From Natronobacterium texcoconense (GTDB lineage: Archaea; Halobacteriota; Halobacteria; Halobacteriales; Natrialbaceae), in the NCBI RefSeq assembly GCF_900104065.1, contig NZ_FNLC01000005.1:1-64000 (forward strand): DNA of 64,000 nt, read 5' to 3'. This document shows positions 51,731-56,780 of this stretch, piece by piece. A model generated the notes under the pieces. It was not told where the DNA came from, did no database searches, and saw nothing but the letters and a program-made list of their open reading frames with translations. Numbering within the stretch: position 1 is the stretch's first letter; every line of letters starts with the position of its first letter. The position numbers and the translations under genes are program-made.

Positions 51731-52123
51731 TTACTCGTCGTCTTCGCCGAGCAGTTCGTCGACGTCGGTGCTTCCGCGTTCGACGATCGAGGCGTTGACC
51801 TGTGCGACGGCGTCCGAAAGTTCGCGACCGCGCACCGTGATACGGCGACGCTCGCCGTCGCGACTCGGGTGGTATCCCGTCTGGCGCTCGCTCATGAGCA
51901 CTTCCTTCAGGTTCGCTCCGGGGACGTCTCCGTTGAGGGGACGGCCGGCTTCGTCGGAGCCACCGGTGATCTCGAGGGTGTAGCCGTCGAGTCCGACGGC
52001 GTCGCCCTCGACTTCTTCGCCGATCGACTTGCCGATAAACCGGTTTGCATCCTGTTCTTCGGCCTCGAGCTGGTAGGTCATCCCGGAGTCGGGATCACCG
52101 ACGACGACAGTGAAACTTGCCAT
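51731..52123 (-). CDS. rps6e: 30S ribosomal protein S6e
   Basis: A 130-residue archaeal S6e (short form, without the phosphorylated eukaryotic tail). The signature [17 protein letters not shown], then [29 protein letters not shown], is diagnostic. Start is ATG 52123; the ORF extends upstream across hairpin-rich DNA and is not part of the protein. Confidence 0.96.
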
Positions 52124-52189
52124 GCACGACGGAAGGCGGTCGTGGCTCAAAAGAACATCGTTTCCCAACGAACTTTTGCTCTGTCGTTC

Positions 52190-52538
52190 GGAAGACGCTA
52201 CGCGTCTTCCGTGATGACGAAAGGCGCTTCGCGCCTTTCGAACCACGGGCGCGGCTCCGCCGCGCCCTCGGCAAAATCTCGAGAGAGCGAAGCTCTCTCG
52301 GACCTCGCGGGAGCTTCGCTCCCGCTTAGCTTCGATGAAAAGCCTTCTCCCTCCGTTCCGGCCCGCGTTGCGGGCCGTCACATCGGTCGTCGGCCCGCTC
52401 GCTCGGCCTGACTCACGGCCTCCGGCCGTTCGTCGTTGCGCGGCGCGTAGCGCCGCGATTTCGGCCTCGCTCGCGGTGAGTATCGGTGAGGGCCTGCCCT
52501 CCCCCGAGTCGCGACCTCGCCGGATTCGGCGAGGTCGC
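52190..52538. repeat. Array of nine tight hairpins
   Basis: Nine perfect inverted repeats with 6-12-bp stems and 3-4-nt loops stand side by side: 52190-52210, 52219-52239, 52247-52267, 52280-52300, 52307-52325, 52359-52377, 52415-52429, 52439-52457 and 52511-52538. The stems differ from each other, but eight of nine have a 3-nt loop (TAC, TTC, TCC, GAA, GTT, GTA). No gene uses this DNA. It fills most of the gap between rps6e and the next gene. Confidence 0.8.
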
Positions 52539-52612
52539 TCCCGGCCATCGAGATGCCCTCTATTGTTGTTCCTACTCGAACAGTCAAGTACGCTGCCGTC
52601 CTACAGTTAGGC

Positions 52613-52891
52613 GTGTTCATCGATCCCGACCGCCTCGAGACGCGCCTGCGCGAGGAGTTCGACGGCACGACCGAGGAGCGACGCGTCGTCGTGCGCCAGG
52701 CCGTCGACCTCGCGGATTCGGGTCAGTACCGGGACGACGCCGGCGGTCCGCTGACGAACGACGTCGTCGTCTCGGAACTCGGTGATGCACCGGACGGGAC
52801 GCCCGCGGATCGGTGGAACTGGTGGATCGGCTCACTCGAGATTGCCTACGGCGATTACGCCCGGTTCAGGATCGATCGATATCCGGCGTAG
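52613..52891 (+). CDS. Uncharacterised conserved-type haloarchaeal protein (92 aa)
   Basis: A 92-residue protein from a GTG at 52613 (FIDPDRLETRLREEF; ends WIGSLEIAYGDYARFRIDRYPA). An ATG at 52553 would add 20 residues of non-acidic sequence. TCAAGTA about 30 nt before the GTG could be a TATA element. No family recognised; composition and codon use are normal for the organism. Confidence 0.65.
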   Translation: MFIDPDRLETRLREEFDGTTEERRVVVRQAVDLADSGQYRDDAGGPLTNDVVVSELGDAPDGTPADRWNWWIGSLEIAYGDYARFRIDRYPA

Positions 52892-55541: not shown

Positions 55542-56780
55542 ATGGACGTCGAGTTTCTCGGGGGTGCACGCGAGATCGGTCGAAGCGCGATCCTCGTCGA
55601 CGACAGTCTCTTGCTGGATTTCGGGATGGATTCGGGGAATCCACCGTCGTTTCCGATCGACGAGGTCGACCCAGAGGCCGTGGTCGTTAGCCACGGCCAC
55701 CTCGATCACGTCGGCTCGATCCCGACGCTGCTGTCGGGTGACGCTCGACCGACGATTCACTGGACGCGACCGACGAACGAACTCACGGGGGTACTCGCTC
55801 GCGATACGCTTCGACTCCACGGCGGCACCTACGACTGTCCGTTCACCGAGACCGAGGTCGCCCGCCTCGCCCAGGTCTCGGAAACCCACGGCTACCGCGA
55901 CCCCTTCGAGGCTGCCGGCTACGAGGTCACCTTCTTCGACGCAGGGCACGTGCCGGGTAGCGCACACGTTCTGATCGACGACGGCGACACCCGCTTGCTC
56001 TACACCGGCGACTTCCACACCGAAGAGCAGCGACTGCTCTCCGGAACGACCGCCCGCCCCGACGCCGACGTCGTGATCTGTGAGAGCACCTACTCCGACG
56101 TCAGTCGGCCGCCACGCGAGGAGATCGAGGCCGAGTTCGTCGAGAGCATCGAGGAGACGATCTGGGGCGGCGGTACCGTCGTCGTCCCCGCGTTCGCGAT
56201 CGGCCGCACCCAGGAAGTACTCTGTCTCTGCGAGGAACACGACCTCGAGTGTTACGTCGACGGGATGGGCAAACGCGTCACCGAAATCTTCCTACGGGAA
56301 GGCAACCGCGAGTTTCTCCGCGATCCCGACCTCCTGCGGCGAGCGAAGGGCAACGCCCGATTCGTCGACGGTCGCGACGGGCAGCGGAAACGCATCGCCG
56401 AGCAGAATACGGTGATCGTCACGACCAGCGGAATGCTCCACGGCGGCCCTGCGATGACTTACGTACCCGCAATTCGCTCCCATCCAGCCAACAAGATTGC
56501 CATGACGGGCTACCAGGTCGAGGGCACGCCCGGCCGCGAACTGCTCGAGACCGGTAGCGCGGTGATCGACGACCGCTCGATGCGCGTCAGCGCCCAGGTC
56601 GAACAGTACGACTTCTCCGCTCACGCCGACCGAGAAGGACTGCTCGACTTTCTCGACGCCTACCACGACAGCGAGGTGCTGGTCAACCACGGCGATCGAT
56701 GCGAGGCGTTCGCCGAGGAGTTACGGGCCGACGGATTCGACGCGAGCGCACCGGAACTGGGGGAGCGACTCGAGGTGTAG
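55542..56780 (+). CDS. Beta-CASP metallo-beta-lactamase RNase (aCPSF2-like)
   Basis: A 412-residue MBL/beta-CASP nuclease without KH domains, the length of aCPSF2. The Zn-binding motif SHGHLDHVG is at residues 51-59. Further ligands are in AGHVPGSAH and YTGDFH. Beta-CASP motifs A (CESTYSD), B/C (SAHADREG) and the final His (VNHGD) are present. It starts FLGGAREIGRSAILV as the family does. Likely an RNA 3'-end processing or decay enzyme. Confidence 0.9.
   Translation: MDVEFLGGAREIGRSAILVDDSLLLDFGMDSGNPPSFPIDEVDPEAVVVSHGHLDHVGSIPTLLSGDARPTIHWTRPTNELTGVLARDTLRLHGGTYDCPFTETEVARLAQVSETHGYRDPFEAAGYEVTFFDAGHVPGSAHVLIDDGDTRLLYTGDFHTEEQRLLSGTTARPDADVVICESTYSDVSRPPREEIEAEFVESIEETIWGGGTVVVPAFAIGRTQEVLCLCEEHDLECYVDGMGKRVTEIFLREGNREFLRDPDLLRRAKGNARFVDGRDGQRKRIAEQNTVIVTTSGMLHGGPAMTYVPAIRSHPANKIAMTGYQVEGTPGRELLETGSAVIDDRSMRVSAQVEQYDFSAHADREGLLDFLDAYHDSEVLVNHGDRCEAFAEELRADGFDASAPELGERLEV

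Follow-up and report, generated by a model that had tools for sequence, protein, structure and literature searches.

A dispersed hairpin element of haloarchaea, usually placed directly after stop codons, that keeps its linkers and loop type while its stems vary

The cluster of short-loop hairpins beside rps6e in Natronobacterium texcoconense belongs to a dispersed, non-coding element of haloarchaea, of which it is a composite copy. The base element, which consists of a first domain (here named HP1) and further hairpins joined by conserved linkers, normally follows a host gene's stop codon immediately; the present copy measures ~380 bp and is without a transposase gene. We put at roughly 0.5 the probability that this stop-anchored element is a 3'-end structure whose arms are kept complementary mainly at the DNA level, with PATE-like insert pairs added in the copy described here. 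Somewhat more tentatively, we propose that it is an undescribed mRNA 3'-end element, anchored at stop codons and selected for shape, the stems of which would turn over by DNA template switching, such that shape may be inherited without sequence.

All nine hairpins listed in an earlier note on the window (the whole stretch of 64,000 nucleotides analysed) are present at 52189–52538, eight of them with stems of at least 8 bp and loops of 3–4 nt (Table 1). The array is thus real, and the element is longer, extending from ~52168 to 52546; rps6e, upstream of which the hairpins had been placed, lies on the minus strand and is divergent from the element. That many of the hairpins have the form stem-TTC-stem did not hold up: TTC occurs in just two loops, while TNC or GNA is found in seven of the nine. 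The count reaches nine because two additional hairpin pairs, inserts A and B, split HP1 in this copy. Clustering is clearly above chance, with neither shuffles of the window nor those of the segment ever approaching eight hairpins per 350 bp: the maximum number of hairpins with stems of at least 8 bp was three per 350 bp when the 64-kb window was shuffled 200 times (first-order Markov), and two in 2,000 shuffles of the hairpin segment itself. Our genome statistics draw on sampled stretches totalling 624 kb and on pattern searches across whole genomes. Across the 624 kb from the same genome, short-loop hairpins are about as numerous as in shuffled sequence (124 vs 108 in a shuffle), and the search for further clusters of at least three hairpins returned one other (L380:926–1069). 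The loops of this second small cluster are GAA and TAC. A CRISPR array was ruled out, as the stems differ and equal repeats are absent, and so were UUCG tetraloops, since the stem register gives a triloop.

Table 1. Features of the composite copy and its neighbours (window coordinates; hp, hairpin)
Feature	Position	Strand	Remarks
rps6e, divergent neighbour	51734..52123	-	Pfam PF01092, E 4e-44
HP1 outer stem 5' side + linker (CGAACTTTTGC TCTG)	52169..52183	+	conserved between copies; base-paired to 52270-52276 and 52331-52334
Insert A, hairpin pair TCGTTCG-hp-CGTGATGA-hp-CGAACCAC inside HP1	52184..52246 (ends approximate)	+	
Hairpin 1 (insert A), 10 bp, loop TAC	52189..52211	+	same stem with loop GTA at rpl10e of G002, a genome of the window's genus
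Hairpin 2 (insert A), 10 bp, loop TTC	52218..52240	+	
Hairpin 3 = HP1 inner hairpin, 9 bp, loop TCC	52247..52267	+	
TCGGCAAAA, HP1 outer stem 3' side	52268..52276	+	
Insert B, TCT-hp-GACCTC-hp-TTAGC	52277..52330 (ends approximate)	+	splits HP1 3' arm
Hairpin 4 (insert B), 9 bp, loop GAA	52280..52300	+	
Hairpin 5 (insert B), 8 bp, loop TTC	52307..52325	+	
HP1 outer stem end + pyrimidine-rich linker (TTCGATGAAAAGCC..CTCCCTCCGTTC)	52331..52358	+	linker conserved
Hairpin 6, 8 bp, loop GTT	52359..52377	+	
Conserved linker TCACATCGGTCGTCGGCCCGCTCGCTCGG	52378..52407	+	core motif in 64/99 copies
Hairpin 7, 6 bp, loop TCC	52415..52429	+	
Hairpin 8, 8 bp, loop GTA	52439..52457	+	
Hairpin 9, 12 bp, loop GATT	52511..52538	+	
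Conserved 3' end CTCCCGGCC	52538..52546	+	most element-carrying rps6e orthologues; 34/99 copies
Downstream ORF, no Pfam family	52553..52891 (true start maybe near 52610)	+	

The earlier note had also held that shape rather than sequence is conserved, a view strongly supported by cross-species covariation and by orthologous sites with different stems, and that the hairpins are not one repeat that multiplied. The latter is correct within the array and misleading overall, in that the linkers are conserved and copies of the arrangement at additional loci, and in additional genera, make up a dispersed family. A BLAST search of the region against its own genome, with inspection of the loci, yielded further loci with identical linkers and different stems. 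The layout of the family is AACGAANTTTTGCTCTGC-[hairpin]-TCGGCAAAANTTCGATGAAAAGCACTCCTCC..TCCGTTCC-[hairpin]-..TCAGTCGTCGGCCCGCTC..CCTGCCCTTCCCCG..CTCCCGGCC, the first domain being HP1. A pattern made from the HP1 flanks alone, with the middle left free (TTTTRCKCTGCN{14,44}CGGYAAAA), matched 27 of 61 relatives (reversed control, 0) and 140 of 391 Halobacteria genomes, or about one third (reversed control, 1); copy numbers so obtained are lower bounds, because the pattern misses composite copies like that of the window. In 179 of the 213 distinct HP1 sequences the free middle holds a near-perfect palindrome. Among the matches listed, the six with a palindromic middle were all haloarchaeal, and readable genome-contig matches from outside the Halobacteria were without one; in viral contigs the pattern gave one weak palindromic match of poor similarity. 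Rfam returned no credible match to the array or the element, and no description of the family was found in the open-access literature searched.

Where copies lie relative to host genes was profiled by counting co-oriented frames of at least 80 codons. Among copies from the window's relatives, the stop codon of such a frame ends at -14 to 0 from the HP1 TTTT in 64 of 99 cases, against 0–11 in the other 10-bp bins; in a second set drawn mostly from other families, such a stop codon lies within ~15 nt upstream of HP1 in 37 of 45 copies. The upstream proteins, named by eye from their C-terminal sequences, include ribosomal protein L10e, thermosome subunits and transcription factor S. Seven genomes of the window's family carry the element behind the rpl10e stop codon, with differing hairpins; a variant occurs in another family, other genomes lack it, and in several genera the element has the stop codon before it and a T-rich tract downstream. 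Standing directly after a stop codon, the base element would be transcribed as the 3' end of the mRNA, where it would most likely protect the transcript or aid termination. From this position and the fixed orientation, an mRNA 3'-end role appears the likeliest at typical loci. HP1 is not a classical hairpin-plus-T terminator, as its T run precedes the hairpin: TTTT stands at the start of HP1, and the inner hairpin is followed by TCGGCAAAA rather than by a T run.

Some copies depart from this placement. Arrays beside rps6e were found in the divergent intergenic region of about a dozen genomes, again with different hairpins, and were absent from the rest; in the window no co-oriented gene precedes the element. 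A composite copy on plasmid pNVE414 of Natrinema versiforme (L505:2501–2676), 88.8% identical over the first 178 bases and with several mismatches in its hairpins, adjoins an unrelated PAS-domain gene, and no co-oriented long-frame stop codon precedes it. With no co-oriented gene before either copy, a 3'-end function cannot be universal, and the rps6e copy probably only separates two divergent promoters. Presence or absence of the element at orthologous sites differs between species, with boundaries that are not fixed to the base.

Covariation within HP1 is strong. In 26 aligned sequences 96.8% of cells pair and 10 of the 18 pairs include changes on both sides; both-side-change cells number 55, vs 14.3 in shuffles, and the signal is lost when partners are slid by one to three columns. 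Cells with a change on one side (such as G-U) number zero in the same table. Among 1,626 pairs from the 213 distinct HP1 sequences, 1,590 are Watson–Crick, 15 G.T, 17 A.C and 4 others, so there is no preference for G-U, and the hairpins of insert A (68 distinct, two of them skipped) are similar, with 497 Watson–Crick, 6 G.T, 8 A.C and 9 others. An RNA constraint acting on one strand would tolerate G.T far better than A.C, and the lack of any G.T excess therefore counts against RNA selection alone. Near-identical hairpins differ on both arms in 97 changes and on one arm in 36; CG–GC flips, which cannot pass through G-U, make up 36 of the 97.

HP1 loops are mostly of three bases (TNC 87 and GNA 33, together 120 of 154), the closing pair is C-G in 165 of 179, and identical stems occur with inverted loops (TTC/GAA, TCC/GGA, TAC/GTA). 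With TNC or GNA loops closed by C-G, these hairpins present C(GNA)G on one of the two DNA strands, and C(GNA)G mini-hairpins are exceptionally stable in DNA (PMC4686876; PMC6479982). The mutation patterns suggest that such mini-hairpins form on single-stranded DNA, where template switching would recopy one arm from the other, both arms changing at once and the loop at times inverting. Template switching is known to homogenize the arms of inverted repeats and to invert loops, both-arm changes being its mark (PMC8794818, PMC8604942); given both marks here, we infer that the arms are recopied from each other at the DNA level rather than kept by RNA selection alone. The missing G-U preference and the inverted loops likewise favour a DNA-level process in shaping the stems. 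Two things limit the argument for recopying: the copies are related, so that the counts are not of independent events, and the element strand has more TNC loops (87) than GNA loops (33), an excess that speaks against a symmetrical DNA process alone.

The reverse complement of insert A matches GTGGTTCGA-hp-CGTCATCA, which was found in 28 of 37 genomes (reversed control, none). An IS605-type transposase was detected by tblastn at nine of the 38 loci fetched by the insert A and B patterns vs none of 130 base-element loci, and at several of the former a hairpin pair lies just past the 3' end of tnpB. Proximity to tnpB holds for a part of the insert A loci only. Insert B is absent from simple HP1 copies and occupies the same fixed point of HP1 in many other copies from several genera. 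In its linkers, insert B is similar to a hairpin pair within an IS200-type TnpA ORF (C1:907216). Both inserts would fit the description of PATEs, which insert A resembles and insert B probably resembles, and insert A, like the sequence beside IS605-type tnpB genes, may be a PATE-like addition to the window's HP1. At L465:2227–2269 (G000 C1, ~907226–907268), a GNA/TNC hairpin pair with insert-B-like linkers sits in an IS200-type TnpA frame, apparently as an in-frame insertion.

How far do these data bear on other explanations? Selection on the transcribed strand alone, keeping the hairpins as a terminator or 3' UTR stabilizer, would explain the position directly after stops, the fixed orientation to the gene, the conserved linkers and the strong covariation; in Haloferax, moreover, hairpins lie near termination sites, and one that was tested terminated 59% of transcripts (PMC7237163). 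We nevertheless consider a purely structured RNA unlikely: besides the missing G.T excess, the many CG–GC flips and the rps6e copy without a co-oriented upstream gene, minus-strand folding is no weaker than plus-strand folding (z = -9.7 vs -8.6), and, with both strands folding far better than shuffles, folding picks no strand. The conserved linkers, which lie on one strand, still suggest some strand-specific function. More doubtful yet is a role in double-stranded DNA, as an insulator between transcription units or, in cruciform shape, as the site of a structure-specific protein; arms perfect on both strands alike, loops of a type stable in DNA and the rps6e copy between divergent genes would suit it, but the orientation bias relative to the upstream gene is strong and no protein is known.

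The element might also be selfish, a transposase-free mobile element of PATE or REP type moved by IS200/IS605-type transposases, with the hairpins as recognition structures and any host function incidental. Its presence or absence at orthologous sites, the composite on the Natrinema plasmid, insert A near tnpB and the occurrence of PATEs in haloarchaea (PMC3119063) all point this way. We give mobility low odds as a full account: IS605-type transposases gave no hit in the 130 base-element loci, the stems vary between copies in a manner unlike a protein-recognized sequence, and a short target would hardly account for the precision of placement at stop codons.

Among described systems, we rate the element as closest to REP/BIME and PATE elements. 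REP/BIME elements are extragenic palindromes in mosaic arrays, often beside stop codons in bacteria (PMC2817692, PMC3733652), and our element likewise builds intergenic mosaics in which the linkers recur; REPs, however, conserve stem sequence and tag, whereas the haloarchaeal element conserves only loop type and linkers. Like PATEs, which are linked to IS605-type ends (PMC3119063), it is short, palindromic, dispersed and devoid of a transposase, but it differs in being anchored at stop codons, with variable stems between conserved linkers and no IS605-type hits. As to near-terminal palindromes like those of IS605-type transposons, insert A was found near tnpB at several loci and the base element was not. 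Similarly, hairpins occur 3' of tnpB, including Halobacterium omega-RNAs with a right-end hairpin (PMC12558985), and insert A is found in that position, whereas the base element sits after ordinary host genes. Hairpin-cluster intrinsic terminators also lie close after stop codons, but they are bacterial, and the accessible portion of the report describes no repeat family with conserved linkers (PMC8355165). Template-switch hairpins share the perfect arms, both-arm changes and loop inversion (PMC8794818, PMC8604942), but are isolated events in RNA or coding genes rather than a dispersed family. No terminal inverted repeats of the MITE kind were found: the 5' end ACGAACTTTTGC and the 3' end CTCCCGGCC are not complementary, and no inverted-repeat pair joins the ends. 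Integron attC sites, which also fold into hairpins behind stop codons, were considered and appear unlikely on location, since the copies are scattered among housekeeping genes instead of lying in cassette arrays.

With this family, archaea would have their own equivalent of the REP/BIME elements of bacteria, under the unusual rule that loop type and linkers are kept and stem sequence is not. With arms complementary without wobble pairs, it offers a natural test bed for the creation and maintenance of hairpins by template switching in replication. Candidate 3'-end elements would also become available by the hundreds, behind conserved genes such as rpl10e and thermosome genes, in a domain whose 3'-end formation and mRNA protection are still little understood.

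Two minor observations may be added. The window encodes, at 55542–56780 (+), a beta-CASP metallo-hydrolase with an RMMBL domain, whose family counts archaeal RNA 3'-end nucleases among its members. Another dispersed element built of hairpins, CTCGGGGTCAAGTGGTTCGA-hp-CGTCATCA-hp-CGACCCCGAG (L483 and other loci), occurs sometimes after host stop codons and sometimes beside tnpB.
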